Assembly: GCA_964035015.1 (NCBI GenBank)
Contig: OZ036005.1
Coordinates: forward strand, 4,495,247-4,559,246
From: Corallium rubrum
Taxonomy: Eukaryota; Cnidaria; Anthozoa; Scleralcyonacea; Coralliidae
Direction of reading: 5' to 3'
Length of the DNA stretch: 64,000 nt
Shown here: positions 16,604 to 44,199 of the stretch, piece by piece
Numbering within the stretch: position 1 is the stretch's first letter
How the letters are laid out: every line of letters starts with the position of its first letter
Position numbers and translations under genes: made by a program
Notes under the pieces: model-generated
The model's input: the letters and a program-made list of their open reading frames with translations, nothing else
Told to the model about the DNA's origin: nothing
Database searches by the model: none

Positions 16604-16706
16604 GTACGGGTTTGTGAATTGATTCATAAGTTGTCAAAGGTAAGACGTTCAGTAAATATAACTCATACTTGACTTCTCTGCTCCCTGTGAGTTCATTTCA
16701 ATTCAG

Positions 16707-16712: not shown

Positions 16713-16770
16713 TGAATTCAAATTAAATTTTACGCGTTAGCTATCGAAAATATTTCGTTGTTGTACATAC

Positions 16771-16912
16771 CTTCGAGACAACCACGGAATTCAACTCGCA
16801 TAGAGATGTGGCCATACCAAGTTTTCGGATGAATCCGGATGTAGCGAGCAACGATGGCTGGATAGACGCTATTTTTTACAATAGTTTCGCAATCTTTATT
16901 TCCTGGAAATAT
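16771..16912 (-). CDS. Peroxidase gene exon 8: end of F5/8C domain
   Basis: This exon lies 7.95 kb from exon 7. It starts in phase 0 after GTTTATAG and encodes IFPGNKDCETIV, VARYIRIHPKTWYGH and SMRVEFRGC. This completes the F5/8C fold with its closing Cys987, giving the usual length of about 154 residues. GAAG then GTATGT at 16771/16770 is a good donor (phase 1). If it is not used, the frame continues for 13 residues to a TAA at 16730-16732, with AATAAA 18 bases further on. Both endings are possible. Confidence 0.85.
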
Positions 16913-18084
16913 CTATAAACATATAATATCAGATTGAATTCAATGAAACCGGGTAAAGACCAATGACCTATATATAACTAGACTACGGGTCCACGCGATA
17001 CTTTTATATTTACATGAAGTGGCTTCAATTGAACGGCGTCATCTTGTTAGGTCTTCCGACGGCGTAAGGTAACCCGAAGTGTTGACGACTCACGCCGATA
17101 ACTCCGTTGAAGTAAATTAAAAATGCTTTGAGGATTAAAAGCGTTTACACAGAAATTTAATTCTGACATTGAAATACATGTAAATTTTGGCGTGAAACAA
17201 ATTAACGTTCCGTGAAAAATTCCAAGCTTTTTCCTTCGCCTTTGTTGTCGAATGAAGCAAGCTCAAAACGGACAGTTAAAACATCTTTCCGAACACGAAG
17301 AAACTCAAGAAACATACAAATACAACAAAAAAATTCAGAATTATCCTTTAAAAAGAAACCTGTAAATATGTTTGGTTTAGCTACACGTTGCTTACCGACA
17401 AGGGTTTTTGGCTTTCAAAATGTTTGTCAACTCTCAGCTCGTCATTGGTCAATTTCGCTGCTCAGACCTAACAAGATGGCGCCTGATGGCGTGTATTTGG
17501 GCCATTTTTTCGTGGGACACCCGCGGCTCATAATATGAACGAGCTTTCTGATTAAAAACCCCTTCCTGATATGTATATAGACAGGCATGGTTATAAAAAT
17601 ATGTTATTAACGAGGAAATGAAATGAAAATTAAGTTTTCTCTATCTTCAAGATCTCCAAAAATAATAAAGTATCACTTTAACAGTTTTACAGTAATTTAG
17701 ATTTGTTTTATATGTAAATTAGATGAACTATGATGTAAAGTTATGTACAGATAAATGTGAGTTATATAGAAAATCCTGATTATCTTCGACCTGTATATCG
17801 ACATCATGTTGAGATCCATGTATAGTTGCAAAGTTTTAAATAATATTGTTTAATTATAAAAATAACACGTATACTCTCGTCTCCAAACACGGAAATTTTC
17901 TCCAGTCTCGCAATTTCCCGCGTGTTTGGATCAGAGTATCCAAAACCGTTTGGTATTTCTTTAATAACTCACAATACCCTGCACATAACTTTACGTCATA
18001 TAGCTTATCTCATTTACATATCAAACAATTCTAAATAATTAATTCTTTGAAAGTTTTCATGGCGATAATGTAATATAAATAAGT
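16913..18084. other. Intron 7 sequence, no gene
   Basis: AT-rich intron. GGCGTCATCTTGTTAGGTCT at about 17036 is loosely mirrored by AGACCTAACAAGATGGCG at about 17464, hinting at a decayed MITE. Open frames here show no domain. Confidence 0.4.
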
Positions 18085-18115
18085 TTTGTGGAAACAACAC
18101 GTAAAATATTTCTTT

Positions 18116-18155
18116 GCTAAGCTTTCGGCCTGTTGACTCAGGCCTTCATCAGAGC
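18116..18155 (-). ncRNA. Hammerhead ribozyme of the Penelope-like element
   Basis: Read on the minus strand: stem I GCT/AGC (18153-18155 with 18116-18118), core CTGATGA (complement of 18146-18152), a 6-bp stem II GGCCTG/CAGGCC, then GAAA, then the palindromic stem III AGCT and cleavage base T. The ultra-short self-complementary stem III matches the dimer-acting type known from Penelope-like elements. Confidence 0.75.
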
Positions 18156-18282
18156 AATGACAACAAGTTGTTGCTCACGTCATTTATAAACTAAGCAACT
18201 GATCAATTAAACCATTAACTGTGATTAAACACGTAAGAATACAATGGCGTATCACGTTAATTTTATTAATTAGAAAACAAAA

Positions 18283-18591
18283 TCAAGAATGTTCTCCGAA
18301 TAGGGCACACCACGTACTGTTTAATGGCTGTCCTTCCTGAGAAATAGTTCGATGTTTTGCAATCTCAATAGACTTCCTTGTTCTTCGCGTGAAGTATTGC
18401 TTGTCGCTGGCTACGAGTGACGACTCTTCCCACTTTACACGATGGTCATACTTCCAAGTGTGTTTGGCAACAGCAGATTTATCCTGTTGGGCTTTAATTC
18501 AACATGTCTTGTGCTCCTTCAGGCGAGTTGAGAGATTTCTACCCGTTTCCCCGATGTAAACCAAGCCACACTCACACGGAATGCAATACAC
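18283..18591 (-). pseudogene. Penelope-like GIY-YIG endonuclease fragment
   Basis: The frame gives VYCIPCECGLVYIGETGRNL, then STRLKEH, a stop codon at 18499-18501, then SAVAKHTW and KSIEIAKH before the natural end at 18283. The CxxC-like pair before the GLVYIG core and the downstream TRLKEH helix are diagnostic of Penelope-like endonucleases. There is one in-frame stop and the gene is truncated, so it is not functional. Confidence 0.85.
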
Positions 18592-18670
18592 TTACGTGAT
18601 TTAATTGATCAATTGCTTAGTTTATAAATGATGTGAGCCAACAACTTGTTGTCATATCGCTCTGATGAAG

Positions 18671-18868
18671 GCTAGGCTGCATGCTCTGGCTAGGCTGGTA
18701 ACCACTGAAGACTTCTGCTTTCCCATTGGTTAAAATTTCGCGCGTTTTTAGTGGCTATGAGTAAAACTGCAATCGTCATAAGTGGAGTTTAGCCCTGATG
18801 ACGCGAGAATGAGATTAGTGGTTACGTGGCCCATATTTCTTTTGAAATTGGGCCAGGGTACCAGGCTA
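18671..18868. mobile_element. 198-bp MITE inserted in a hammerhead, 8-bp TSD
   Basis: The flanks TGATGAAG at 18663-18670 and 18869-18876 are identical and derive from the ribozyme core. The interior has inverted AGGCTGGTAACC/GGTACCAGGCT. A related copy lies at 24319-24506 (shared TTTAGCCCTGATGA and TTTCTTTTGAAATTGGG). Confidence 0.75.
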
Positions 18869-19048
18869 TGATGAAGTGGATATGGAGTCAACAGGCCGAA
18901 AGCTTAGCAAAGAAATATTTTACGTGGTGTTTCCACAAAACTTATTTATAATTCTAAATAACCTGTGAACGAAGAGTGAAATATGGAAAAACTGTAACTG
19001 AGTCATTCTTTATGTCGCTTTCTGCAAGGAGATCGTGAAGATGAAACA

Positions 19049-19253
19049 AACTTACAGTTGCCATTTCACATTATATACTTTACCGCCGTGTGTTGCGAAG
19101 TTCGTTGGGAAGTTCAGATATTCGTTCGGAAGTTCGGAATTACGTTGCCACGGTTGAAAATTATCCAATCAAATTGCGAGTTTTGGATCAAAACTCATTC
19201 TGATTGAATGGGATAATTTTTCCACCTTTTAGTAATGTGAAAGCAACTGTAAT
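19049..19253. mobile_element. MITE with TTACAGTTGC ends
   Basis: TTACAGTTGCCATTTCACATTA on the left is mirrored by TAATGTGAAAGCAACTGTAA on the right. An inner inverted pair around AATTATCCAATCA/TGAATGGGATAATT is also present. TSD not resolved. Confidence 0.55.
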
Positions 19254-19997
19254 TTTTATTTCATTTCTTCTTTAAGAAGAATTAAATACGTTGACCTCTG
19301 TCTAAAAAGTTTAAAAAAAGGATGTTGTCTTCACTAAGAAATGTCTGTTACACGGTTGTAACGAAAATTAATTTTAATTACTCGGGATACCTGTCTGTGG
19401 TAGACGAGTCTAGGTTTCGGCTCTGTTATTTTTATTTTTTTTTGTGTCGACAAACGGCACTTCTGACGTCACACTTAAATGCTGCTGATTTCATCATGGC
19501 CGATTTTCATGCAGGAGCGTGCAGGAGTCATTGCGTTTTTTCTCCTGACGGCCTTTGGTTGTGTTGCTCGAAGTGAATTTGTGTTTTAATGATAAACACG
19601 CTCACAATGCTTACAATAGACTATAGTAGACCTGGGTTGGTCGGCGATCTCGATAACGGTAGGCTGAAAATGTGTAGTACTCGATCAAACTTTATACGAA
19701 AATTCTCGATCAATGTGTTCTCAAACAATTTACATGTGTTATTAATTAAATTGTGCTGAAAAATGTTGCTCAAGTGCTGTAAATCAAAGAACAAAGAAAG
19801 CTGATAAAGCCAACTTGCAAGTGAAAGGTAAACATGCTGTGTTTTACATCTTCATCGAGGTTGACATTTAACTGAACTGACTTGTGTCTGTGAATGGCTG
19901 AATGCTGTATGTGGTTTGCTTTATTTTTGCTTGTACAGGTATTGTTTATTATTGTACTGATGTCTTGCACATTACTTTCATCAAGTGTGTATTATTG

Positions 19998-20850
19998 TTT
20001 GGGTACACCAATATGGCCATTTTTTCATTGTTTTGGTACACCAGTATGGCTACCATTTCAATGTTTTGGCACCCATATGGCTACCATTTCAATGTTTTGG
20101 CACACCAGTATGGCCACCATTTCATTGTTTTGGTACACCAGTATGGCCACCATTTCATTGTTTTGGTTCACCAGTATGGCCACCATTTCATTGTTTTGGT
20201 TCACCAGTATGGCCACCATTTCATTGTTTTGGCAGACCCGTATAGCTGCCAAATCAATGTTTTGGTACACCAGTATGGCCACCATTTCATTGTTTTGGTT
20301 CACCAGTATGGCCACCATTTAAATGTTTTGGCAGACCAGCATGGCTGCCAAATCAATGTTTTGGTACACTAGTATGGCCACCATTTCAATGTTTTGGCAG
20401 ACCCTTATGGCTGCCAAATCAATGTTTTGGTACACCAGTATGGCCACCATTTCATTGTTTTGGTTCACCAGTATGGCCACCATTTAAATGTTTTGGCAGA
20501 CCAGTATGGCTGCCAAATCAATGTTTTGGTACACTAGTATGGCCACCATTTAATTGTTTTGGTACACCAGTATGGTCACTATTTTATTGTTTTGGTACAC
20601 CAGTATGGCCACCATTTAAATGTTTTGGTTCACCAGTATGGCCACCATTTCATTGTTTTGGTACACCAGTATGGCTGATTGGCCACTATTTCATTGTTTT
20701 GGTACACCAGTATGGCCACCATTTCAATGTTTTGGTACACCAGTATAGCCACCATTTCAATGTTTGCAATTTGGTACACCAGTATAGCCACCATTTCAAT
20801 ATTTTGGTACACCAGTATGGCCACTATTTCATTGTTTTGGTACCCCCATT
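19998..20850. repeat. 33-bp minisatellite (~25 units) derived from a MITE
   Basis: Tandem units of about 33 bases with the core CCAGTATGGCCACCATTTCA plus TTGTTTTGGTACA. Since 33 is a multiple of three, several frames stay open on both strands (11-residue repeats such as HQYGHHFIVLV). They are not genes. The unit equals the inner words of the MITE at 6413-6577. Confidence 0.9.
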
Positions 20851-21141
20851 TGTTATTATTATATACTTGGGCTACTATGGTAGAATGAGTCTAGGTTTTG
20901 GCTCTGTTTGTTATTATTTTTTTGCCACACAAAATTGCATTATTGCATCATCCCATCAGGCCTTGCAAAACTGTAAAGGCAGTTCTTTGCCTATTTTGCC
21001 TTTGATCGAGTTGGGTTGAGTTGTTTTCCCACGGTATTGGTGAATTCATCAGTAATGTTGCTGACAAGGTTTGTCCATGAAGACAGAATAGGTGAATTTA
21101 TTACAGACATAAAAAAATGCTATGTTGACATCAGTACCTAG

Positions 21142-21617
21142 CAGGGGCGTAGCCAAGGGGGGGTGAGGGGGGGCAGTCACCCCCCCAATGGTCTCCAAGA
21201 ACGTTCTCGTGAAAAGTTTAAATCCGTGGAGAAACTTGTAGGGGGGTACAGTTGTTTTAAGTCCAAGTGAGTAGATAGTTGATGTGTTATATATATTGCA
21301 GGCATGTATATGCTATAAATTACAATAGTAAGGGTCTATACAAAATGCTTCCAACCTGTTTTTACATTTACAACTTGTTTATAAATAAATCTAAAGATAT
21401 TCTGACGTACATGTATCATTCTATGTTCTGGTTTGATTTCAACAAAATTATGTAATTTATTGCTTTCAGATTACTCTTAAATACTTGCATCAAAATGCAG
21501 GAAATGGTGTTTCCGAGACCCTAGAAATCCAAAATTTTCTGGGGGGCATGCCCCCGGACCCCCCTAGGAGACCGAGGTTCTCGCCCCCCCAAACCCAAGA
21601 CCCTGGCTACGCCCCTG
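21142..21617. mobile_element. 476-bp hAT-type MITE, perfect 8-bp TSD
   Basis: The ends CAGGGGCGTAGCCAAGG and CCCTGGCTACGCCCCTG are typical of hAT ends (CAGGGG). GTACCTAG occurs at 21134-21141 and 21618-21625. The right 230 bases match the right part of 4444-6388. No coding capacity. Confidence 0.9.
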
Positions 21618-21625
21618 GTACCTAG

Positions 21626-22407
21626 GAAGTTTGACTTGAGGACTAGATAGAACATATACTTACTGTTTATCTAGTAAGGGCTTTCTCCTGTTTGTTGACA
21701 TTGATCACAACAGTATCTTTATATTTTTGCATATTATTTAATATGTGCTTTTAATATTACTAAATGAGTTTTATTGTATGTTCTATGTACCATTTGTGTT
21801 TTTACTGACTGTTGCTTAGGCTTATTGATCCATTAGGATTTATATTAAATGTTGTATTTAAAGTGCTTTGAACCTTTGAGTATGTAATTTTGTTATTTTG
21901 TCACAATATGTTATCCATATCTTGATGTTCATTTTGATATACATTTTGATGCATAGATTGAGTATTAAGATATTCATCATAGAAACAACTTTGAATATAA
22001 CATACAAAAATGTATAGAGAAATTAGAGTGTCTGACATTCAACTACAGCACTAGCACTGCAGAGTTGAAGAGCCTTCCCAACATGCTCCAAAGCAAAAAC
22101 ATGGAATCAGGATTCATGTTGTATGAAGATATTGCATAGATGTAGGGTGCAGGTATATTTTACTAAGTGCATCTATACCTGCACCACATTCAGCCTTTGA
22201 TCCGAATCATCCGATCTTCCTCGGCCCACTCCCACCTCTTTGCTCGCGCATTATAGAGACCTCTGCACTTTCCAGTAGCCCGAGTGAACACCTGACCCAG
22301 GTGTCTTGTTCTAATAGTACTCGCAACTGATGATCCAGGCGGGTATATTATTTAAACTTATGGCTTTGCTTTGTGTAGTTAGCCTGTGTCACAGCCCTAG
22401 CTCGGTA
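21626..22407. other. Intron 7 sequence, no gene
   Basis: AT-rich filler without recognisable ends, repeats or frames. Confidence 0.45.
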
Positions 22408-22710
22408 ATAGTAACGTCTGTGAACACTCGAGAGATTGCTTGTTCTTGCAAAAATTAAATCCCTGCAAGTTTTGGGGAAAATAATTTATGTCACCTTAAA
22501 AAATGACGTAGTTTTGTAGTCACTATACCCACTTTTACATGTTTAAAGCCACAAATACAAGGTAAATCGAGAGACAGAGTCAGTAGTTGGTTTGTAATAT
22601 GTGTATACCTGTGTTATTTTGGTGGATTTGATCGCGTTGCATGATAATAATTAACATATTTAGCTCTAATATCGTCCCAAGCAATCGCTCAAGTGTTCAC
22701 AGACCTTACT
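22408..22710. mobile_element. Decayed MITE, GTCTGTGAACACT ends
   Basis: GTCTGTGAACACTCGAGAGA on the left is approximately mirrored by AGTGTTCACAGAC on the right, each next to an ATTGCTTG word. No TSD was resolved. Confidence 0.5.
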
Positions 22711-23194
22711 CTTACAGAGTTAGGCTTCGTGTACTTTGCGGGCCTTGATATTTATCTTAAGATAATTCTAAATATTATATCTCAACTGTAAATTGTCCAG
22801 TCAGAGAACTTGATTTGTACCACATGACCAGTTAATTTATCGTAGAATTGCCCGCCACAGCGGGGTGTAACCTCGAATACCCGCTGTGGCCGGTATTCGC
22901 GTTCGTGCACCACGCGTGAATGTCACGCACGATTCACGAAGCTGTCGCGGAGTTTGGCGAGACAAGAAAACGTTTCGCCTGAACATTCAGATGTTGACAA
23001 GAAGATTGTTAGGTTACAAGAAAATAAGGATTCAGGGAATACAAAGAAAGCAACAAACAATGCATCCAGAAGCCTTGAGACGACAACAGAATGGAAACAG
23101 ACAATGAAAAGCGGACAAAAGTTGAGCTAAGCGAACTTTATTAACATTATTTAAGCTTTTTTTGGAAAGGTTAATATGTTTCGATATAATATAT

Positions 23195-23312
23195 CATTTA
23201 TAGACCTTTCGCTCGGGAAATTCGATGAAATATTACCCCTTGGGATGATATATCATACCTCGGGGTAATATTTCATCGAATTCCCCTCGCTCCAGGTCTA
23301 TAAATGATAATA
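23195..23312. repeat. Palindromic element, ~50-bp arms
   Basis: TATCATTTATAGACC at the left is mirrored by GGTCTATAAATGATA at the right, with paired inner words TCGATGAAATATTACCCC and its mirror. Confidence 0.65.
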
Positions 23313-23505
23313 ATACTCAATTTTTTGCTGTTCAACGTCTTATAATTAATTCTAATCGCTTTTCTAGTACTTTATAATTGTATAGTCTATTATAATTTTG
23401 GCCACCGAGAGAAATTTTGGTCAAAAAGTATTTCTGGGCTCTTACACCCCCCCCCCCCCCCCCCCATTATGTTTGTCTAGCTTATTTTACCAAACCTTCA
23501 AAACC

Positions 23506-24056
23506 TCAATAATTCATGAGGAAAACACAAAGAAAATCAGTACCATGTCCGTGGTTTTATATCTGATAAAGAAACATCCTGATTTACATAAACTTTAGCT
23601 TTGATTTTCTTAGTCAGCGTGCAGATGCTTGTGTTTCCAGAGCTTGGGTAATCTATGATTTTCTCGGCTTAGACAACGTTATTTTTCAAACTTACTACCA
23701 ATGAACTTACCAAATGGGTCGTTTTTGAAGCTATTTAAAACATTCGCAGTATGTGTTTTATCAGATCTTCAAAAACTCAATAATTCATGAGGAAAACACA
23801 AAGGAAAATCATGACCGTATCGTATCTTTATATGTGATAAAGATTTCTCCTGATTTACATAAACTTTAGCTTTGATTTTCTCGGCTTAGACAAGGTTATT
23901 TTTCAAACTAACTCCGCCAATCAACTTACCAAGTGGTTTGTTTTTGAAGCTGTATAATAAACTCGCAGTTCATGTTTTATCAGATATAAAAACACTCAGC
24001 TTCACCTCGTGTCTTTATATCTGATAAAACACTCCTGCTCGTTTATTATACAGTAC
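23506..24056. repeat. Dispersed repeat, also at 41157-41445
   Basis: Starts AATAATTCATGAGGAAAACA and ends in CTCGTTTATTATACAGTA. The second half is nearly identical to 41157-41445. An internal duplication (two AATTCATGAGGAAAACAC words) shows it is itself partly tandem. Unclassified. Confidence 0.65.
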
Positions 24057-24318
24057 TAAAATACTTGGCTCTTGCCTTGAGTTTTAAATCTGATAAAACA
24101 CTGCTGCTCATGTTTTAAATATTACTTATCAAATCATTAATAATTCATGATGAAAATTCAAAAGAAATTAATGTTATCGGTAAATCGCTTAATCGCATAC
24201 AGATTCGTTCTGATTTACATAAACTTTTTCACCAGCTAAAATCACTCCAACTTGAAAAATAGTTTGAAAATATGGCTATTTAGATGTGTCCATTTGATAA
24301 GTACGATAAAGCATTTCA

Positions 24319-24506
24319 TAGCCTGGTAACCTGGCCCAATCAAAGAGTATGGGTCAGGTAACCACTCGGTAACCACTAAAGACTTCTGGCTATGAGTGAA
24401 ACTGCAATCATCATTGGGGATTTAGCCCTGATGATGTGAGAATTAAGATTAGTGCTGGGTTACCTGGTGCATATTTCTTTTGAAATTGGGTCAGGGTACT
24501 AGGCTA
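24319..24506. mobile_element. Second copy of the 18671-18868 MITE
   Basis: TAGCCTGGTAACC and GGTACTAGGCTA form the ends; shared interior words are noted under 18671-18868. It lies close to the 3' border of exon 7 of the peroxidase gene. Confidence 0.6.
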
Positions 24507-24864
24507 CAGGTGGGCCTAGGCGTACCATGCAGGAGGGCAGGGGGGGGGGAATTGCCCCCCAAACGTTTTAAAAATGAAAATTTCAGGCACTTTTTGATGA
24601 AAAAATATATTTTGAACTGTTTTAATATATTTTCGACTCTTAATTTTTCGGTGAAAAATGTCCCCCCCCCCCCCCCCCACAACGTAACTGGTCAGGTACA
24701 CCTATGGGCTAAGCAAATCGATGTTCTCGCGGGCAATTGTTATTTTATGATAATATTAAAATATGTGTATTATGAATTTAAAGCTTTCTATAAAAATATT
24801 TGTAAGAACTGCTTACACTGTATTCTATTTTATAATTATGATAATTATTGTCTTCCTTATTTAC

Positions 24865-25193
24865 CTTAAGCCATCTGTAACAACGATAAGATTTGAAATG
24901 AATTCCGTCATTGCTGTAAGAAACAGTGTAACTTTTCACCCATTGTTGGTGCCTGCCACTTCGGCCTTGGGTTTGTATTTCAGTAACAGTAGCTTGACGT
25001 TTAAAATCGACTTGGAGCCATTGATTGTCGGCATTATATCTTGCCGACCATGCTCCTGTTTTCGATCCAGTTGGTCTGAAATTTAACCTCGCGTTTGTTG
25101 GTCCATGGTTAGCATCATATTCAGAGGAAGCTGTGATTTGGGAATCCAAAATCTTTCCATCTTGCATACCAAGAGAATACGGCTTTTTACATT
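24865..25193 (-). CDS. Peroxidase gene exon 7: first part of F5/8C (discoidin) domain
   Basis: The acceptor is TTGTTATTATAG and the exon ends in phase 0 at CTTAAG then GTAAAT. It encodes Cys834, ILDSQITASSEYD, the WSARYNADNQWLQVDF core, TVTEIQTQGR and VSYSNDGIHFKSYR. F5/8C domains bind carbohydrate or phospholipid at the cell surface or matrix. Reading into the (CAAA)n array upstream is artefactual. Confidence 0.87.
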
Positions 25194-25220
25194 CTATAAT
25201 AACAAAACAACAATTAACAA

Positions 25221-25500
25221 CAAACAAACAAACAAACAAACAAACAAACAAACAAACAAACAAACAAACAAACAAACAAACAAACAAACAAACAAACAAA
25301 CAACAATAACAATAACAAACAACAATCAACAATCAACAACAACAACCAACAACCAACAACAACAACTAACAACAACTAACAACAACAACTAACAACAACA
25401 ACTAACAACAACAACTAACAACAACAACAACAACTAAGAACAACAACAACAACAACAACTAACAACAACAACAAACAAACAAACAAACAAACAACAACAA
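25221..25500. repeat. (CAAA)n and (CAA)n-type simple repeats
   Basis: About 20 CAAA units, then irregular CAACAA/CTAACAA repeats, starting 27 bases upstream of the exon 7 acceptor. Frames of Cys-Leu-Phe-Val or Lys-Gln-Thr-Asn are artefacts. Confidence 0.95.
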
Positions 25501-25944
25501 TTAAATACCGAGAACAGAGGCGTATAAAGCCTATACTTCCCTCGGCACGTAATAAGCTAATTTGGTTCATATTATTAGGTTGTTGTACATGTTGTTGTTT
25601 GTTAACTCTTACTTAGTAAGAAAACGCCTGATTGCATGTGTACGAATGGTTGAAGCCAATCCACAAAGTTGAGTGGATTGACTTGAGATTCATGTCAAGC
25701 AAGGATCAACCTGAATGTAACCTCCAATCTGATTCATCTGACGCCGCCTCCGTTCTACATGCATACCACGTTATTCAGATCATTTCAGTCACGTCTTCAG
25801 GACGACGTTAATTCGGGAAACGCCGGGAAAATCTGTTAGTTGAGTTTGACTTCAAACAGTATTCAATACTATACGTAAATGATTTGTGGTTTCTGCATGC
25901 TAGATACTGAACTTTAGATTGCCGTCGTCGTGATAGAAACAATA

Positions 25945-26668
25945 ATAGGGACCTTACGATGCTAGGACGACGACGGCGGTTAAAAAGCAACATAAACTTT
26001 ATAATTAAAAAACGTCACGGCTAACTGACTATTATATTTGATATATAAAGCTAGTTTAATGACTTTCAAAACGCCGCAGTACTGCTAAAAAGATTGTAGT
26101 GTCTGTATTGAAGTCAATCTTAAACAACAAGTTCTCATCTTTTGGCCGTTTAAGTCGTCCCGAAGACGTGAAAATGCTCTAAGTGGCGTTGTAAAAAGAA
26201 CGAGGACGTTGTTGAGATTTACTCTAGGGACTAAAAATTATTAATTCTCTTTGTTTCGCAACTAGAATTTTTTTGTTTAGAAGACGTCGTCGTTGAAGTT
26301 GCCGTCGTACTTGGTAAGGTCCCTATAATAGGGACTTTAAGTCACGACGGCGGTTGGAAAGCAATGTTTACAATTTAGAGAAGTAAGGGTTGACTGACTA
26401 TTGTATTAGTTTAATGACTTCCAAAACGCCCCAGTACTTCTAAAATGATTGTAGTGTTCGTATTGAAGTCAACCTTAACTGACAACAGTTCTCATCTTTT
26501 GGCCCTTGATGTCGTCCCGAAAACGTGAAAATGCTCGAAGTCGTTGTATAAAGAACGAGGATGGTGTTGAGATTACTCTTGGGTCTAAAGTTATTCATTC
26601 TCTTTGTTTTGCAAAAAGAATTATTTTGTTTAAAGGACGTCGTCGTTGAGGTTGACGTGGTGACATAT
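25945..26668. mobile_element. Two adjacent related MITEs (AGGGACCTTAC ends)
   Basis: Copy one runs 25945-26330 (ATAGGGACCTTAC mirrored by GTAAGGTCCCTAT). Copy two follows immediately to about 26665. Both share GACGACGGCGGTT, TTTAATGACTTNCAAAACG and GAACGAGGA words. A third partial copy occupies 41720-41985. They lie in intron 6. Confidence 0.65.
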
Positions 26669-26741
26669 CGCTACACGGTTGCGCAACCTGTGGACGCAAA
26701 ACCTGTTTCTAAAAGAGAGCAACATTAATTACTTTACTTAC

Positions 26742-26849
26742 GTTCACAGCTACTTCCACCCCACGGACCTTTACACTGGCACCAGCACTCTTTGCCTCTT
26801 GTAACTGATAAACCACCATGCAAACACGGTCGTTTAAAAGATTTATGCT
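26742..26849 (-). CDS. Peroxidase gene exon 6: EGF-like module
   Basis: A 108-base exon (phase 1 in, phase 1 out), the classic symmetrical class for shuffled EGF modules. It encodes RPCLHGGLSV, then ECWCQCKGPWGGSSCE, with the Cys-x-Cys and Gly-x-x-Gly spacing of the second half of an EGF domain. The acceptor is CTGTTGTAG and the donor GTAAGT. Confidence 0.8.
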
Positions 26850-27611: not shown

Positions 27612-28739
27612 CTTTCCATAGACACAAATCAATTCCAGGAATTCTTTCACAAGAAACTCGCGGATTTCCATACGGGCAGGGAGTCTTGAACGCATTACTC
27701 TGGATTGACACCAAGTTCTTCAAGTTATCGCAATATATTCGAGAGAGGGAGCTCTTGTCGATTTCTTTAAGTTTTTCTGGGGTAAAGATGCCACTCATTT
27801 TGTAGTAGAATCGATCTCCATCTCTTGTTCTACGAAACTGATCTGCAATTATACATTTGAAGGTAGGCCCCACTGAAGCACCTGGAACCGGAGCTTCGGC
27901 CAAACCAGCGACCCACAATTCAGCAAGATTAGGGTCATCGTTGTAGAGTTGCTTAAGAATCTGTCTATTGGAATAATGTATTTCATTTTTTGTATCTTCA
28001 AATGCCCCAGCGTTGGACATTCCACAAAACTTACGAAACTTGTTGTAACCAGGCAAACCATGGTCTCTGGAACGCTGGATATTCAAAGCGGCAAGGTTTT
28101 GTCCCGGCGAGTTTTTGCGTTCGAACAGATGTTTTACAACTCCAGGTGGTAATGTTCTATCCACATTTCCCGACAAGTTTCCCACAAGCCCAAATAGAAG
28201 TGGTTCAATTCCTCTTTCTCGAATAAAAGTATTATTGAAGAACATGAAACGAAGATTAATTGCTGCCGGAGCTATTGGATCAAAGTTTTCGTTCAAAAGA
28301 TCAAACTCAGGTCGAATGGTGCTGTGGCCAAATCTGAACGCAGCTGTTGCAAATGCGTTGGAAATGCCGGGATCTGTGTCTCGTTTATAACCGGTGTAGG
28401 TAGGTAACGAATTAGGTCCGAGAATCAGAGGGAGGTAATCATGATACGTGAGTTTTTGAAAAACAGCTCCCAAAATTTTCCTCGCTTCTTGGTACACTCG
28501 TTCACCGTTCCAATGACTGTTGATTGACTTTAGCTTTCTTGCAATTCGATTATGTTCACGAAGAAAGAGGGATTGGAAGGAGGCCAGTGATTGTTGTTCA
28601 TTTGATCTAGCATCTCCAGCAATAAAGCAACCACCGACATCTCGGCATAGCTGATCGGCTCCGCCAGCAAGCGTTGTGTCTATTGGTAGCAGTTCACCAT
28701 TTAATCCATTTGATGATGAGCGAAGAAGACCCTGGTCAT
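27612..28739 (-). CDS. Peroxidase gene exon 5: catalytic core of haem peroxidase
   Basis: The largest exon, 376 codons. The acceptor is TTGACTGTAG and the donor AAAG then GTAAGG. It holds GDARSNEQ, with catalytic Arg465 and haem-linked Glu468 (compare TRSSE of myeloperoxidase), and FRFGHSTI with proximal His559. It also holds the signature NIQRSRDHGLPGYN and the C-terminal GPTFKCIIADQFRRTRDGDRF. With exons 3 and 4 the domain is full length with no lesion, so an active enzyme is expected: oxidation of halides or tyrosine with hydrogen peroxide (family knowledge). The ATG at its left edge is not a start, since it lies on the splice junction. Confidence 0.93.
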
Positions 28740-28814
28740 CTACAGTCAATGAAAATTGTAAAAGTTTACCGAAAAACGGCGAGATTTACGTTTGATTTAT
28801 CATTTTATGTCAAT

Positions 28815-32763: not shown

Positions 32764-32928
32764 AGTGTTCGATGGAAAAACGATTCGAAAACGATAGTGT
32801 GAACGGAAAACGTTTGATACGTTTTCGCTACGAGCTCTCCGTTTTCGAACGGAAATGGATTAGCGTGGACATGGCTTCAACATTGCAAAGTCGTACGCAA
32901 GAAAACACCCGGTTTGACCATAACATAC

Positions 32929-33161
32929 CTGATTTATCTTGCCTCAGGAACTTAGCTAGTTTTTCTGTCGAGCCATAAATTTGGGACGCATCTACGAAAG
33001 CAGTAATGCTGTTGATTTGTTCTCTCGTTGTAGGATATCCCTTCTTTTCCTGACAAACAGCGGCTGATCTTATTGCACGAATACAAGTACTAGTGTTGCC
33101 TCCTGGCAATGGAAGGATTGGATAACAAGGACATTCAAAATCAGGTCGGGATCCAGTACAG
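32929..33161 (-). CDS. Peroxidase gene exon 4: calcium-site segment
   Basis: Acceptor TTTCTTAAG, donor TCAG then GTATGT (phase 1). It encodes CTGSRPDFECPCYPI and then SITAFVDASQIYGS. The latter is the conserved calcium-binding and helix segment of animal peroxidases (compare the SxxDASxVYGS pattern). Six cysteines are consistent with extracellular folding. Confidence 0.87.
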
Positions 33162-34849: not shown

Positions 34850-35510
34850 TGTGCTTCTAATTTTAACTTTTGTGTCGGACTCTCGGACCAGTCCAAATAT
34901 TTCAGTGTTTTCCCGCTCTTTTTCCGAGGACGAGCTTGGACGTCGCACATGCGCAAAACGTTTGGCAGCGGTGTTGGGCCAATCACGTTTTCCAAAATTT
35001 TACATCGGATTTTGACGGATAAACACTCAACTCGTACCCAGGCTTTTCCTGCATGAAGCACTGATTTCGCTCAAATGCCGTGCACAAAATAAACAAAGAT
35101 GGCGGTCAATGGAGGGAAATTCGTTCAAATTTGAACATTATTCTGTAATATTGTCAAGTACAGTAGTATCTGCAAGAAAACTAGAAGATTCTTAGTACTT
35201 TGGGTAAACTCTTTCAAGTAGTGGTAAAAGAAGCAAAGCGTTTTTAAACAACCAAAATGAATATACGAGGAGTGGAGTAGTGGACGGGCCAAAGGGCATT
35301 GTGATTTTGTAAGTACACGTTAAATTAACACGTACAGTCGAACATTTTTTATGTATATTGTTTAAACTAAGTAATAGCACTGTTTTTCGTGCAATTTGGA
35401 AAAAACATGCACTTGTAAGTTTTTCAACTATCTCAAATAACATTCTTCCTTCGGTCGTGCTATTTTGATGCCTGAGTCTTTGAAAAACTCACTTGTGCAT
35501 GTTCTAAATA

Positions 35511-37100: not shown

Positions 37101-37128
37101 TATTGCACTCGAAACCATGCTATTACCA

Positions 37129-37791
37129 TGGATAGTAAAAAGTAGGGTGCTTATATATAGGCCCTGGGGTGCTTATATATAGCGCCCTGGTAAAAAGACT
37201 GGATAGGAAACATGATGGCATAAGCATATTAACAATTGGTTGAAATTGACAAGCTTAAAAACCCCTAGTACTGTATATTCAAAGTTTAGGATTAATACAA
37301 CTTAAAATGAAAATCGAACTGCCTGTAAATATGACAAAGCCACAATACGATAACATTCCCATCTATTCTTACTTATTTTAAAAGAAAATATCAACTGTTT
37401 ACTAGTTAGAATATGCATTGCAAATTCCAAGCAAAACAGAGTACTATTTTACGACGCCAGTTTGTTTGAAACAACACAGGTCACAGAAAACATCAAAACA
37501 AAGATCAACAGCGTTTACCCCGAACACTCGATTGTGGTTTAGGCAGGTTTGTAAGGCGATAAAATCATTTGAAACGTCAACACAGTCATCTGAATGTGAG
37601 AACATGAAGAATTTGAAGAAAAGTTCACTTAAAAACCTCAGTAAAACAAGCATACTCGTGCCATTCGTGACATCACTATTTGCAACTAGGTTTCAACCAT
37701 TTTGCAAAGTGAGTGCATGAATGCGATTTAACCAATCAAAAGGCTCAAAACACCCCACATGACTATTAGTTTCCTATCCAGTTCTTTTAAA
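37129..37791. mobile_element. Possible MITE with ACTGGATAGGAAAC inverted words
   Basis: GACTGGATAGGAAAC (37199) is mirrored by GTTTCCTATCCAGTTC (about 37770). CCATGCTATTACC lies on both outer sides (37116-37128 and 37794-37806) as a long direct flank. Frames inside on both strands show no domain. Confidence 0.5.
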
Positions 37792-38074
37792 TCCATGCTA
37801 TTACCTATACTAATGATACTTGCTTAAAGATATTGCATGAGTGTGAAGGTCCATTGCTTTGCATGGGGCACACTTATACATGAGAGATTGAGCAGCATAA
37901 CTCCAGTGTACTTGCACATAACATTTGAAGACAATTTTGCTGAGATGCTTGAGAGTTTTTAAACTTTTTAAATCTATTCTTCTAGTCCAATTTCAAATGC
38001 ACGGTTCAAACAAGAAACTATCCTCATAGTTGTGATTGTTTTGAATTAAACATGATATATAGTCACAGGGTATA

Positions 38075-38340
38075 CAGTGCAGTACAGAAAATACAGTACA
38101 GTAATTGTACAGTACAGTGCAGTGTGGTGTGGTATAGTACAGTACAGTACAGTATGGTACAATACAGTATGGTACAGTAGGGTAGGGTATGGTACAGTAC
38201 AGTATGGTACAGTACAGTACAGTATAGCACACCACGGGATGGTGCAGCACGATACACTACGGTACAGTCCGATACACTACGGTACAGTCCGGTATAGTAC
38301 AGTATGGTACAGTACAACATGGTACAGTACAGTATAATTT
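38075..38340. repeat. Irregular TACAGTA/GGTACAG satellite
   Basis: Short variable units built on GTACAGTA, imperfect throughout. Both strands stay open as Tyr-, Cys- and Val-rich frames, which are artefacts. Confidence 0.85.
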
Positions 38341-38681
38341 TTATGAACAAATGTACTGTTTTCTTTGTTAAAACATGAATACCAAACCTGAGGGGTTGCA
38401 CTAATGTACTTTTAGAAGTCTAGTATATATTACACCAAACGTTTAATATAAGACACGGGGGTGAGGGTAGGGGGTGGGCAAAGAAGGGATTACACATTTT
38501 TTGTGCATGAATGTGTTTTCCATGGCTAAAACATACCGCACCTCACCAAAATTATAAAACGGTCTGTTATGTATCAGTCAATGCAGTGTACCCCCCCCCC
38601 CCCCCCCCCTGGGACATCACCAGGAGTTGCCCAGGAGTTGGGCATTAGATATATAATATTATTCTAATATTCCAAGCCCTC

Positions 38682-38903
38682 TTACTTTGTTTCCCCAGCA
38701 CTACAATGTGATTTGGGGGGGAGGCAATTGACTTGTGTTCCTCTCTCTCTAGTATTTTTATTGATGGATTCAATGCATAGTTTGAACTGTCTGTTTCCTG
38801 CTTGTTGGATTCGATTATGGAAATCATTTGCATTAGCCGGTCCGAGAGTAAAATTAATAAGTAGACAAAAAGCAATTGTGGCTAGTAATATTGGGCATTT
38901 CAC
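38682..38903 (-). CDS. Possible first exon of a small secreted protein
   Basis: The frame opens MKCPILLATIAFCLLINFTL, a convincing signal peptide, followed by an Asn- and Gln-rich segment with three cysteines. At AACAAA followed by GTAAGA (about 38688) there is a good splice donor in phase 2, just before the in-frame stop. It lies inside intron 3 of the peroxidase gene, same strand, and its ATG is 8 bases from a MITE. I found no second exon and recognise no family. It may be a chance frame: a 74-codon open frame with a signal-like start is not rare in AT-rich DNA. Confidence 0.3.
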   Translation of the reverse strand: MKCPILLATIAFCLLINFTLGPANANDFHNRIQQAGNRQFKLCIESINKNTRERGTQVNCLPPKSHCSAGETK

Positions 38904-38907
38904 TCGA

Positions 38908-39087
38908 TAAAGCCTGGTTCTCCGATCGTCGGCGATTTGTGATTTAGATGCATGTTAAAACGGGAAGTGCAGCAGCATGTTAAGTAATAATGAACAATAC
39001 AGAAAAGCAGTGCTTTTATTCTTTTACTTAACATGCATCTAAATCATGGGTCGGCGACGATCAGCGACGTATGAGAACCAGGCTTAA
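38908..39087. mobile_element. MITE with AAGCCTGGTTCTC ends
   Basis: AAGCCTGGTTCTCCGATCGT at 38910 is mirrored by GAGAACCAGGCTT ending about 39086. The inner pair TTAGATGCATGTTAA and its mirror is also present. TA or TTA flank is ambiguous. Confidence 0.65.
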
Positions 39088-39449
39088 AGGGTTAAAGCGA
39101 AAGATAGAGAATTTGTTGCGTCTTTGGTTGAAAAGCAAACGCCTGGAGAGTTTAGTAAAGGTGTTTGAAACAAGTATACTCATAATAAAAAGCTGATTTT
39201 TGTAGTGTGAATTGTTCAGTAACAGATTAAAGTAGAGTACAACTTTCCCCAGGGCGGGAATTTGCCGCAGATTTTTGGCCCCACCATGGGGCATATTTTC
39301 ACCTGCTTTTCATCCGCATTGCAGGAAATTAGCACCATTTTTCGAAAAATTGTCAAATACCCGGGGGTTGGTTCCGGGGGGATGGGAACGCTTGGATTTG
39401 ACTGATACATTGATAATGATTCCATTAGATTTAAATTTACACGCAGTAC

Positions 39450-39921
39450 CTGATGTTTCCACAATGGTCACTTCCTTCGCTATTACTAGTCAAGTCTAGA
39501 TCGTGATCTAAAAATTGTCCAAACTGCATCACTAGGTGTGTCAATGTTGATGACGATGAAGATGAAGAAGCAACCTCATCTTTAATAAAATCTTGGCTGA
39601 TTTTAAACGGAGAAGGTACTGTGGGCGCATTTGGTTGGTCGGGGTAACCAATTGGATCATTTAGGCCATCGACATCAAAATATTTAGCTGGTAAGAGTCT
39701 TATGAATGCTGTATTTGATGCACCACGATCTGCTTTCAAAAGGTTGTTACATCTTCCACTTATGGTTCTATATACTGATCGCAGTGGACACATTTTGGGG
39801 TCGACAACTGTCATATTCTTGCACCGCATTTTGCTTTCTATTTGGTTTATTATTTTTGGTGATAAAAGGCGTTTTATATGGAGACATGCGGACACTACTG
39901 CTTCTTCATCAAACTGTGCCT
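39450..39921 (-). CDS. Peroxidase gene exon 3: N-terminal part of haem peroxidase domain
   Basis: Acceptor TTGTATTTTAG, donor CATCAG then GTACTG (phase 2). It carries the family hallmark YRTISGRCNNL, the surface loop RGASNTAF, and the distal haem pocket FGQFLDHDLDL. There Gln321, Asp324 (haem-ester residue in mammalian enzymes) and His325 (distal His) sit as in myeloperoxidase. A seven-serine run (304-310) precedes TLTHLVMQ. Open reading continues on both sides into a tetranucleotide array; those extensions are intron. Confidence 0.88.
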
Positions 39922-39987
39922 CTAAAATACAAGAAGATATATTTTGATTAAAGTGCTTGCTCTGGACACTGACGGACAGATTTACCG

Positions 39988-40178
39988 ACGAACGAACGAA
40001 CGAACGAACGAACGAACGAACGAACGAACGAACGAACGAACGAACGAACGAACGAACGAACGAACGAACGAACGAACGAACGAACGAACGAACGAACGAA
40101 CGAACGAACGAACGAACGAACGAACGAACGAACGGACGGACGGACGGACGGACGGACGGACGGACGGACGGACGGACG
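39988..40178. repeat. (CGAA)n(CGGA)n tetranucleotide array in intron 2
   Basis: About 36 GAAC-type units followed by about 12 GGAC-type units fill half of the 360-base intron 2 of the peroxidase gene. On the minus strand it stays open as Ser-Phe-Val-Arg repeats continuous with exon 3, a likely cause of wrong gene models. Confidence 0.95.
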
Positions 40179-40281
40179 GGCAAACGAAGTGAATGAATAA
40201 ATAATACAGAGGAAAAAGAAAACCCCCAACTAAAGTCAACCAACACGCTAGAAGTGTGTAAAAATACCTGAATTCACTTAC

Positions 40282-40785
40282 CAAAATGCTTTATGATTGT
40301 TTTTTTAATCATTTCAATAACTTTCTCTAATTTCACCTGTGCCATCGAGATTGGTTTTGCTGTTTCCGATGTTTTTCTCAGAAAACGATTTAAGGCAGCA
40401 GCTGTTATCTTTGACGTGCCATATCTCAGAATGTGATTACTCATCTTTAGACGGTTTACTCTGTTTATCATTTCACGGACAAATCGATCTCCATAGAAAT
40501 CCTTTAGGATAATAATAATCACTTTTGTTGTTGTAACCTTTTGGAATTTGCTTTGTGCCTGAATAACAAGTCGAGTGTTGTTAAATTTCACCGCAGCTCC
40601 GTGATCCAGATGGATCAACAGCTTCAGTGTGCCAGTGTTTTTATCGATATTTAGTAACGATGTTTTGGTAAGAGAACTGTAGACAACATCAGAAGTCGTT
40701 GTTTCCACTTGTACTTTACCAATCACATCTTTATCAACACCCATGGTCGTCAGGAAGACATACGTTTTACTCGAAAATTTTAGAC
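40282..40785 (-). CDS. Peroxidase gene exon 2: cadherin-like domain and linker
   Basis: The acceptor is a TTACTTATTTTCTAG tract and the donor is GTAAGT. Residues 19-110 follow the cadherin-repeat pattern: KFSSKTYVF strand, DVIGKV, a Tyr strand, LLNIDKNTGTLKL, RLVIQAQ, then TTTKVIIIIL. The usual calcium ligands (DRE, DxNDN, DxD) are missing, so it is a degenerate, probably calcium-independent repeat. Residues 113-185 are lysine-rich and probably helical. No other cadherin repeat is visible. Exon in phase 1, out phase 1. Confidence 0.75.
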
Positions 40786-40867
40786 CTAGAAAATAAGTAA
40801 TCCAAAAAATTAGTTAGGCCTAGATCAAACGTTGCTCTTCTCATACGCCGAACCTAATTAGTTCAGG

Positions 40868-40938
<71 letters not shown>

Positions 40939-40941
40939 TAT
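40868..40941. repeat. (AT)n(AC)n microsatellite
   Basis: About 27 AT units followed by CA repeats, immediately before a hammerhead-like motif. Confidence 0.95.
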
Positions 40942-40961
40942 ATTCACACTCTTTACGTTTC

Positions 40962-40995
40962 TCTCTGACGAAGGGCCTTCGCTCGAAACGTTAGA
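40962..40995 (+). ncRNA. Hammerhead ribozyme, compact Penelope-type
   Basis: Stem I TCT/AGA, core CTGACGA (position 7 tolerates C), stem II GGGC/GCTC with one G-T pair, then GAAA, palindromic stem III ACGT and cleavage base T. Same architecture as 18116-18155 but a different sequence family. It lies in intron 1 of the peroxidase gene, antisense, flanked by AT arrays. No coding remnant is visible nearby. Confidence 0.6.
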
Positions 40996-41082
40996 CTCCT
41001 GCGTTCTCTGTTTCGGCAGTATATCTAACCTTACTATATTTCGATTGTTGTTTGTACACTGCCTACGCAGCACGCTACTTTT

Positions 41083-41084
41083 AT

Positions 41085-41152
<68 letters not shown>
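41083..41152. repeat. (AT)n microsatellite
   Basis: About 35 AT units between the ribozyme region and the dispersed repeat at 41157. Confidence 0.95.
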
Positions 41153-41155
<3 letters not shown>

Positions 41156-41156
41156 C

Positions 41157-41445
41157 AGAAACTCATTAATAATTCATGAGGAAAACACAAAAGAAAATCA
41201 TGACCGTATCGTATCTTTATATGTGATAAAGATTTCTCCTGATTTACATAAACTTTAGCTTTGATTTTCTCGGCTTAGACAAGGTTATTTTTCAAACTAA
41301 CTCCGCCAATCAACTTACCAAGTGGTTCGTTTTTGAAGCCGTATAATAAACTCGCAGTTCGTGTTTTATCAGATATAAAAACACTCGGCTTCGCCTCGTG
41401 TCTTTATATCTGATAAAACACTCCTGCTCGTTTATTATACAGTAC
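41157..41445. repeat. Dispersed repeat, copy of 23760-24056
   Basis: Nearly identical to part of 23506-24056, starting AATAATTCATGAGGAAAACA and ending CTCGTTTATTATACAGTA. Confidence 0.7.
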
Positions 41446-41494
41446 ATATATATATTATATATATATATAACAAATAGATTCCATTTTGCCGTTG

Positions 41495-41633
41495 TCTGTT
41501 CAGTTATAGATGCACAGATGACGTCACAACGTGGTAAGAACAAAAAAGTGGCCCACAAGACGCAGTCGAGTGGATCACTGATGTTCTTACCACGTTGTGA
41601 CGTCCTCTGTGCATCTACAACTGAACAGACGTC
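41495..41633. repeat. Palindromic element, ~55-bp arms
   Basis: TCTGTTCAGTTATAGATGCA is mirrored by TGCATCTACAACTGAACAGA, and ACGTCACAACGTGGTAAGAAC by its complement, with a short unpaired loop. Confidence 0.7.
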
Positions 41634-42006
41634 GTTTTGTGAAGTGATTTTAAACTATAGCATTAAACTAGCAAAAACCACGAATCCTTTTACGTAGTAT
41701 TGAATACTTAAAGTATGTTTTTCGACATCCAAATGCTTTAGAGTTCTAAAAGGATTTTGTCGCATAGTTTAAAGTCAAACTCAACTAACATGTTTTACCG
41801 TTTCACGAGTTGACGTCGTCCTGAAGACTTGGAAATAATCTGAATAACGTTGTATGTAGAACGGGGACGGTGTTAAGATTACTCTTGGGACTAAAAATTA
41901 TTCATTTTCTTTGTTGTGTGAGGAAAATTCTATTGTATTATAGGGACGTTGTCCTTGACGTTCGCTTGTATTTACTTAAGCTACCTATTGAGCGGTGACG
42001 TTAGAC

Positions 42007-42958
42007 CATTGAACTCTAAATAAACTGGAACGCTAACTCCATAAGAAAGGCCCTATGATGGGGTGAAGTCAAACTTCCGGCCGCTGGGGGTCGCCATTGC
42101 ACGTCTGACGTCAACAGAACCTATGAGGGGCACGTACAATGAAAACCTGAAAACTCGCTGCAAAAAACAACCATTTTTTAGACCTAAAGTTTTTTTATAG
42201 ATGATAGCGAAGAAGATAGTATGTATTGGGCTTATTGGCCTTGTACCTGAACAATTTCTACACACGAAAATGGATTGAATGACGAAATATCTGCCGAACA
42301 AAAGCAAAATTCGAGTCCGAAACTCGTACGGAAAATGCAGGTTTCTCTTATTTTTCTTTGTTATCTCAAACGTTTGAAGGTTGTCTTGCCAAGAATTAGT
42401 AATAAGATAATGCTAAATTATAGCTTTAACTCAAGTTTCAGTTGTGGAAATGCTAAATCTGACATTTTTCGATACGAAGAGTAATTCCAGAGCTGTAATA
42501 ACACACGGTAAAGTGCATTTTGTTGTTTTTTTCCTACTAAAAATTGAGAAATTTAAAACCTAACTGTTTTTATAAACAACCTCTTCATTTTAAACCTGGG
42601 TTTCATATGTATTTTCTTTATATTTGTCCAAACCAATGGCAATTTTGGTTGCATATTGTTGGCTTTCATTTGAGAGCTTATATTTTTACTGTTTTCCTTG
42701 TTTTTACTCGTCATGTCAGTGTTCACCTACTCTACGGTATATTGGAATTTGATTTAAGCCTAAAAGTGGTTAACAAGTTCAGTTTTTGTTTGATTTCAAG
42801 CTGTTTTTGCAACCCAGTTCACCAAATTCAGCTTCATTTTCTCTCGGTTATACAGTAAAAGGGACTGGGATTGACGTGCATGGCGGCCCCCATGTCCGCC
42901 ATTTTTGGCTTCATGATACGCCATCGAGTTATCGTTCCAGTTTACTTAGAGTTCAATG
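42007..42958. mobile_element. 952-bp hAT-like element, copy 2, 8-bp TSD
   Basis: Inverted relative to copy 1 (14493-15433), with the same CATTGAACTCTAA ends. CGTTAGAC at 41999-42006 and 42959-42966 is a perfect duplication. Lies in intron 1. Confidence 0.87.
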
Positions 42959-43120
42959 CGTTAGACCTAGGTACCAGTCTCATCATATACGCGCGTGTTT
43001 CAGAACGACGGGACAAGGCTGCATAAACTCTATTGTAAGACAAAGGCTTCGAACAATGAATAAAAGTGAATAGAATTCAAAAGAATGGAGCCGAGACTAC
43101 GCGTGCATGATAACGCACTG

Positions 43121-43483
43121 AAACACCGCTGCCAAACGTTTGCGCATGCGTGAATTCGCTGAGTAAACACTGCAAGAGAAGTGGGAACTAGCCGTGGTGA
43201 CAACAACCAGACAGTGAAGACTAAGTAAAGTAAGACTCGACTATTTAGTGTGTTTTAAAAATAGGGTAAAGAAAATTACGAAGGGGTCATTTCAGAATAT
43301 GTTACAATATTGACAAGGAAGCCATGCACAAATTACCTACCTTATCTTTTTAGTAGTGTGCTTATAATTTTAACTTTTGTGTCGGACTCTCGGACCAGTC
43401 CAAATATTTCAGTGTTTTCCCGCTCTTTTTCCAAGGATGAGCTCGGACGTCGCACGTGCGCAAAACGTTTGGCAGCGGTGTTG
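43121..43483. mobile_element. ACACCGCTGCC-type MITE, second full copy
   Basis: Same ends as 8995-9342; ACGCACTG flanks it at 43113-43120 and 43484-43491 (8-9 bp). A SINE fragment (CTGCCTCTCACC-like) follows at 43520-43610. Confidence 0.72.
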
Positions 43484-43519
43484 ACGCACTGTGGTATCCA
43501 TGCAAATGCATGCATGGTC

Positions 43520-43612
43520 CATTTTGGCATCATGGGTGGTACAAGCTGTTAGCTCGCCAGGTGCCTCTCACCACTGAAGTTAACCCCGGTTAAATGGGGG
43601 CGTAGTCTATTG
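43520..43612 (+). mobile_element. 5S-derived SINE fragment
   Basis: TGTTAGCTCGCCAGGTGCCT, then TCTCACCACTGAAGTTAACC and CCGGTTAAATGGGGG, align with the head of the SINE at 47858. Confidence 0.5.
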
Positions 43613-44147
43613 AGAGATGCATCATCTGGAACTCAGCAAAACTTGTGCACGGTGAGGACAATGTATTTTCGGTATATTGAAGCAATAATATAATAGCGAC
43701 GTTTAGCACTATTCACCTCCACCTCGGTGAATAATTGTTAATTATAATGAAGTTATATTGACTGATTTCGTTGGTTTTTACGAGTCAAAGATTCTGAGCC
43801 CCAGACAGACAGCCCCAAAATATACTCTGGCGTTGAACAGAGTAAAATATGGTTCGAAAACCAACCTTACGGACGGCAAAAAGTTAAGGAGATTCTATAC
43901 TCCTCAATTCGCTCGCAAAATTATTACATAAAACATGCAATATTTAGAATTTCTACTACGCAACTGACAAGCTAACATGCAAATAAGAACTCTTTATGGA
44001 AACATGATTTCTGTTTTAAACTGACCATAAATTGCATTATTATTGTAAATAAATATTAAATAATTATTTCTGTAATATGCTAATTTAGAAACTGATTAAA
44101 AATAAAAAAAAAAAAAAAATTAAAAAATTAAATTAAATTAAAATTAC

Positions 44148-44199
44148 CTGCGGACAAGCAAACAAAGCAAGAGAAAAGAAGACTTCTGAATAGCACCAT
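44148..44199 (-). CDS. Peroxidase gene exon 1: start and signal peptide
   Basis: The ATG (context ACA ATG G) opens an 18-residue stretch, MVLFRSLLFSCFVCLSA plus the first base of Gly18. It is a short n-region and hydrophobic core with a small residue at the likely cleavage site, a typical secretory signal. It ends at CCGCAG followed by GTAATT (phase 1), which fits the two-base start of exon 2 exactly. An upstream ATG (in ATGAAC) is followed at once by a stop, so this start is preferred. The exon is too short for ordinary ORF scans. Confidence 0.72.

Follow-up and report, generated by a model that had tools for sequence, protein, structure and literature searches.

In the window analysed here, a stretch of 64,000 nucleotides of Corallium rubrum (C23:4495247-4559246; genome of 474 Mb in 312 contigs), the product of a minus-strand gene running from 44199 to 16730 is probably a secreted haem peroxidase of the myeloperoxidase (MPO)/thyroid peroxidase (TPO) type, with the predicted order cadherin-like domain, peroxidase, EGF-like module and F5/8C domain. 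This unusual order, already proposed in a preliminary description of the same DNA, is supported by the sequence. The real peculiarity of the gene is its F5/8C tail, which was not found in the paralogs examined on contig C8 and whose most similar copy lies elsewhere in the genome. We regard it as fairly probable that this tail was added by exon shuffling to a duplicated MPO/TPO-type secreted peroxidase, the cadherin-like front being a trait of the whole family.

Gene Structure and Peroxidase Domain

Splicing of the eight exons, with GT-AG borders at all introns, gives a single open frame of 1002 residues, instead of the 989 formerly reported. The eight exons of the preliminary description are thus preserved in an open frame, whereas the intron phases are 1,1,2,1,1,1,0 and not 1,1,2,1,1,0,1. 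When scored with a generic consensus taken from general knowledge, all splice sites of the model ranked in the 93rd percentile or higher among the GT/AG sites present on the same strand between 16.7 and 44.3 kb, the lowest being the exon 3 donor (93.3) and the exon 8 acceptor (94.8).

The start codon and a hydrophobic, signal-peptide-like stretch (residues 1–17) are located in exon 1 (44148..44199, minus strand as all the exons). The assignment of this exon is putative, the upstream DNA of the close paralog having returned short chance-level matches only. Exon 2 (40282..40785), 77% identical to its C8 paralog, would code for the cadherin-like domain (approximately residues 19–110) and for a following linker, probably helical (approximately residues 111–186). 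The peroxidase is encoded by exon 3 (39450..39921; N-terminal part with the distal Gln and Asp-His-Asp), exon 4 (32929..33161; calcium-binding loop TAFVDAS) and exon 5 (27612..28739; core with the Arg..Glu pair, the proximal His and Asn). Exon 6 (26742..26849) carries the EGF-like module, and exons 7 (24865..25193) and 8 (16730..16912) the first and last part of the F5/8C domain, respectively, with the stop codon ending at 16730. Since the hydrophobicity of the protein peaks at residues 1–19 and nothing resembling a membrane anchor follows the signal peptide (best 19-residue mean beyond residue 20, 1.07), the product is probably secreted, and the membrane tethering formerly suggested is not borne out. 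Long simple-repeat tracts were observed within introns (39990–40190 and 25200–25400) and just upstream of the gene (44720–45070).

The Pfam An_peroxidase profile (PF03098) matched residues 236–771 over all of its 530 positions (1.8e-162, above the curated cut-off). The distal Gln, Asp-His-Asp, the Arg..Glu pair, the proximal His, the Asn and the TxFxDxS calcium loop all align with myeloperoxidase, in agreement with the earlier statement that the catalytic residues are in place; given the roles that we take these residues to have, the enzyme is probably active. Among the best 60 of 69 matches with solved structures, the nearest was myeloperoxidase (1.2e-110), followed by lactoperoxidase and eosinophil peroxidase, and the matches also included Peroxinectin A (5.5e-67) and dual oxidase (2.5e-36).

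Origin of the F5/8C Tail

The Pfam F5_F8_type_C profile (PF00754) matched residues 851–984 over all of its 127 positions (3.7e-33, above the curated cut-off), confirming the F5/8C domain of the preliminary description as complete. The nearest PDB entries, among the best 60 of 66 matches, were coagulation factors V/VIII, neuropilins and lactadherin.

The closest paralog of the window gene, located at C8 16.477 Mb (C8d), keeps exons 2–6; behind its EGF-like exon comes one trypsin-like exon whose phase is compatible (C8:16473611-16474249; Pfam Trypsin, 1.1e-15). Where active trypsins presumably have their catalytic-His motif this exon reads TTRSC, and the tail of C8d would be catalytically dead. 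One other relative of this exon, at 31% identity, was retrieved from the genome, on C28 (E <= 0.001); a protease remnant was sought in the window and was not found. In turn, a profile built on the four usable of eight F5/8C rows matched both F5/8C exons of the window and nothing else in five C8 and two C20 stretches. No F5/8C tail was found in the other C8 and C20 peroxidase genes within the downstream stretches searched, amounting to about 7 kb for C8a1 and about 9 kb for C8b1.

By identity, the best F5/8C copies among the 150 of 182 candidates scored in the genome were C1:13604097 (78% over 81 residues, with exon 7) and C1:13604954 (74% over 47 residues). Among the matches listed, which are a lower bound (150 of 182 candidates), an intronless F5/8C sequence at C1:36300979 reached a higher full-length score (3e-43) with an identity of 49%. 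The locus at C1:13.60 Mb (C1:13602597-13605839) resembles the tail of the window gene in having an EGF exon (Pfam EGF, 9.3e-9) upstream of F5/8C exons. It differs in that its F5/8C exon has a frame broken part way and in that it has no peroxidase, the PF03098 genome search having returned no match on contig C1.

At the DNA level, the window and C8d share colinear patches around exons 2 to 6, ending at 26698, the other matches being scattered repeats, while similarity to the C1 locus covers 24851–25500 and 16692–16977, corresponding to exons 7 and 8 plus their flanks. As the segment 25194–25500 consists mostly of simple repeats, the limit of the C1 similarity is a soft one. The presumed junction thus lies within intron 6 (25500..26698), and the pattern is that expected for exon shuffling inside this intron.

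Each part of the gene looks protein-coding and constrained, because dN/dS was 0.20–0.61 across exons 2–8, these values being simple estimates on short stretches. In particular, it was 0.25–0.61 for exons 2–6 against C8d, 0.34 (78 codons) for exon 7 against the C1 copy and 0.20 (48 codons) for exon 8 against the second C1 copy, the comparison of exon 8 with the first C1 copy being saturated. Such constraint on the F5/8C exons bears on a different arrangement, in which the EGF-like exon would be the last one of the peroxidase gene. The F5/8C module downstream would then be a stray copy in like orientation, either silent or part of some other transcript. Such an arrangement could be suggested by the match of the F5/8C exons with another locus, whose own F5/8C exon is broken in frame, by a stop (ERK-stop) lying within a few codons past the exon 6 donor, which would close the protein, and by two ATTAAA in intron 6, where no AATAAA occurs. 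We consider it unlikely, however, both F5/8C exons being intact, ordered and in phase with exon 6, with good splice sites, and an AATAAA (16707..16712, minus strand) being found immediately past the stop codon of exon 8, at approximately 18 bases. Moreover, no independent start exon was seen in the 1.5 kb that separate exon 6 from exon 7, although no systematic search was made.

Several points weigh against the gain of the tail by the window gene. The join between exons 6 and 7 is predicted from the sequence, and intron 7 is about 8 kb long; the constraint seen in the F5/8C exons may date from before they reached this gene; the direction of the change, a gain here, rests on absence within stretches of limited length; and the ligand, substrate and place of action of the enzyme are conjectured. 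Finally, divergence at silent sites between the F5/8C copies amounts to 0.37 (exon 7) and 0.60 (exon 8), no less than between the window and C8d peroxidases (0.22–0.36), so that the tail may date back to the peroxidase duplication or beyond. Taken at face value, this divergence would fit an F5/8C tail ancestral to the window/C8d pair, which C8d would have swapped for its trypsin-like exon. Such a history seems to us quite improbable: the other seven C8 genes have no F5/8C in the downstream DNA searched, and every other listed F5/8C match (150 of 182 candidates scored) is more than about 0.7 Mb away from any peroxidase match.

The 3′ End of the Gene

The 3′ end is uncertain, and may lie further downstream of exon 8, because of a strong donor within this exon (CTCGAAG followed by GTATGT, first intron base 16771, 99.8th percentile) and of a truncated EGF-like exon at 8671 (8580..8671, minus strand), which is in a compatible phase and represents a possible further, or former, 3′ exon. 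A GT follows the place matching the 16771 donor also in both C1 F5/8C copies compared. The gene could therefore continue past exon 8 via this donor and acquire further modules, such as the EGF-like fragment; we hold this as possible but doubtful. Indeed, the fragment, detected by our local EGF profile (E 6e-4), has a weak acceptor (87th percentile) and runs into a stop, and the AATAAA directly behind the exon 8 stop weakly favours an end at exon 8, even if its occurrence by chance is possible in AT-rich DNA. Of the open frames collected further downstream, those rich in cysteine were inspected.

The Peroxidase Paralogs and the EGF-like Exon

The PF03098 search of the genome gave 53 exon matches. 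Eight genes, all located on C8, have a core-exon layout like that of the window gene, namely C8a1 and C8a2 (0.71–0.73 Mb), C8b1 and C8b2 (1.53–1.55 Mb), C8c (2.26 Mb), C8d, and C8e1 and C8e2 (16.57–16.59 Mb). A tree of exon 5 from 11 genes joins the window gene to C8d (support 100/100; 84% identity, 373 columns), and two peroxidase genes on C20 are about 33% identical; the peroxidase genes on C25, C53, C46 and C18 were kept outside the family comparison.

A relative of exon 2 was found upstream of the enzyme in 8/8 C8 genes, clearly so in C8b1, C8c and C8d. Weaker relatives were retrieved by using the exon of another paralog against a small local database in C8b2 (5e-5), C8a1 (0.006) and C8a2 (0.14), the last two being near-identical by eye, and genome-wide in C8e2 (4e-4) and C8e1 (just 0.30). 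Upstream of the C25 peroxidase gene, whose core is split over several exons, a weak relative was also present (0.012). Judging from these matches, the cadherin-like exon is a feature of the family.

EGF-like exons were detected downstream in six of the nine genes searched (window, C8d, C8e1, C8e2, C8b2 and C8c, in the latter at a distance of about 7 kb from the peroxidase exon) by a local profile built from several of the very exons that it then detected; with the same profile, none was found in the downstream stretches of C8a1, C8a2 and C8b1. Exon 6, on which the profile was itself partly built, is kept in C8d (62% identity to the paralog exon). It has five cysteines, versus six in an EGF module, and every match with the Pfam EGF families (PF00008 and kin) was below cut-off, so that the EGF domain of the preliminary description is retained here as EGF-like. 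Four of the five EGF-like exons of C8e1, C8e2 and C8c pass the Pfam EGF cut-off.

Some further observations were made. The frame of the main exon 5 is broken in C8a1 (C8:708860-709983), and a peroxidase match at C53:6020124-6020714 falls within an open frame that spans 1936 residues, an unusual length for one exon. A GIY-YIG-like motif (VYIGETGRNLSTRLKEH) occurs in a short minus-strand open frame at approximately 18500 of the window. This frame, to which a stretch near C8:16471056 is similar, is probably a remnant of a transposable element.

The Cadherin-like Front Domain

No cadherin was found above cut-off by Pfam on the 1002-residue protein, for which the cadherin values were 0.023 and 0.079. 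When searched alone against the PDB, exon 2 gave two weak matches, both with desmocollin (best 0.13), and the C8e2 exon matched only Cadherin-23 and Protocadherin-19 (best 0.042). A profile of the seven paralogous exons matched 33 PDB sequences (E <= 10), 32 of which are named cadherins, the best being CELSR1 (6.1e-7) and the single one without such a name being 5v5x, whose name is uninformative. The reversed-sequence control profile retrieved no cadherins, and three unrelated matches (best E 1). With Pfam, all of the seven exons remained below cut-offs, the best values being RET_CLD1 (0.0029, one member) and Cadherin_FAT4_N (0.023, the better of two). A cadherin fold for exon 2 is thus probable, and the call rests on the paralog profile; Pfam alone is blind to the domain. 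The structure prediction that the preliminary description had proposed for residues 19–110 was run on exon 2 as a single sequence, with a mean pLDDT of 38.9, too poor for a comparison of folds.

DRE, the cadherin calcium motif, was found in none of the seven paralogous exons, and neither was DYE, a bare D-x-D being present in three of them. The PROSITE cadherin signature [LIV]-x-[LIV]-x-D-x-N-D-[NH]-x-P, as given in an excerpt of PMC3396595, was likewise found in 0/7 exons. As both kinds of signature are missing in all seven, a calcium-bridged cadherin adhesion by this front domain appears unlikely. Moreover, the domain is single and common to the paralog family, and therefore provides no argument for adhesion sites. 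The cadherin repeat originally described holds as a cadherin-like domain, and the placement of the enzyme at adhesion sites is left unsupported. If transcripts confirm the gene, a cadherin-like fold could form the fixed N-terminal piece of an enzyme instead of an adhesion repeat.

A Proposed History and its Meaning

According to the explanation that we favour, the family baseline would be a degenerate cadherin-like domain plus linker ahead of the enzyme, as read from the exons themselves, often with EGF-like modules behind. Duplication from a gene like that at C8:16.477 Mb would have given the window copy, which would then have gained its F5/8C (discoidin) tail when shuffled exons entered the phase-1 intron that follows the EGF-like exon. 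The donor would be a locus like that at C1:13.60 Mb, the similarity being observed and the direction of change presumed, and the sister copy C8d would carry its presumably dead trypsin-like tail at the equivalent place. The front part, which takes the position that the propeptide has in TPO, may work as a folding region or a pro-region. As for function, the combination of an MPO/TPO-like enzyme with a surface-binding tail points to local oxidation: the F5/8C domain might bind a carbohydrate or acidic-lipid surface, at which the enzyme could oxidise halides or tyrosines with hydrogen peroxide, with antimicrobial oxidation or matrix cross-linking as the possible outcome. More tentatively, and with somewhat less than even confidence, we propose a peroxidase family with a fixed cadherin-like front and exchangeable tails, in which the phase-1 intron would act as a docking site. 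Close paralogs would have been given different tails there, F5/8C in the window gene and an inactive trypsin-like domain in C8d, and peroxide chemistry would thereby be redirected to different surfaces.

If confirmed by transcripts, two peroxidases about 84% alike in the core exon would bear unrelated tails at one intron. If true, exon shuffling would have been caught fairly near the act, and the pair would represent a natural experiment on the aiming of an oxidising enzyme.

The axial-skeleton proteins of red coral are reported to include a haem peroxidase, and cross-linking by extracellular haem peroxidase is mentioned, in excerpts of PMC7853314. Domain shuffling is described for coral matrix proteins in excerpts of PMC4890752, in the main text of which, as far as available, the word peroxidase is not matched. 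The available parts of both papers do not concern the architecture described here, and a peroxidase combining a cadherin-like front with an F5/8C tail was not found in the open-access literature searched by title or abstract start.

Comparison with Known Peroxidases

Secreted multidomain peroxidases are, as a general kind, already known. Myeloperoxidase, lactoperoxidase and eosinophil peroxidase are the closest structures across the entire peroxidase domain, with identical catalytic residues; they are not known to have a cadherin-like front, or an EGF or F5/8C tail. The Met that follows the haem-linking Glu in MPO, where it forms a sulfonium link, is a Gln in the coral enzyme.

The preliminary description had listed peroxidasin, dual oxidase and simple secreted forms as the usual kinds. 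Peroxidasin, also a secreted multidomain peroxidase, carries LRR and Ig domains ahead of the enzyme and further modules behind it. It carries a VWC domain too, according to excerpts of PMC3533774, and the Pfam scan of the coral model shows no LRR, Ig or VWC. In dual oxidase, the peroxidase domain is fused to a membrane NADPH oxidase and has lost the proximal His (PMC4420034, in part), whereas the coral enzyme keeps this His and has no oxidase domain and no membrane stretch. Peroxinectin, described in the same excerpts of PMC4420034 as an invertebrate peroxidase tied to adhesion with an integrin-binding KGD motif, is alike to the extent of the Peroxinectin A match; this match is weaker than that with MPO, and the coral protein contains neither KGD nor RGD.

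The former list was right in setting the gene apart from peroxidasin and dual oxidase, but it omitted thyroid peroxidase, which has an EGF-like domain too. In TPO, following an N-terminal propeptide, an MPO-like domain precedes CCP-like and EGF-like domains and a membrane anchor (PMC4666655, in part). The coral protein differs from this set of CCP-like domain, EGF-like domain and transmembrane segment in having no CCP and no anchor and an EGF-like module below cut-off, and TPO has no F5/8C domain. Nevertheless, the two are alike in having an EGF-like module behind the MPO-like domain and an extra N-terminal part ahead of the enzyme, as far as TPO is described in that source.

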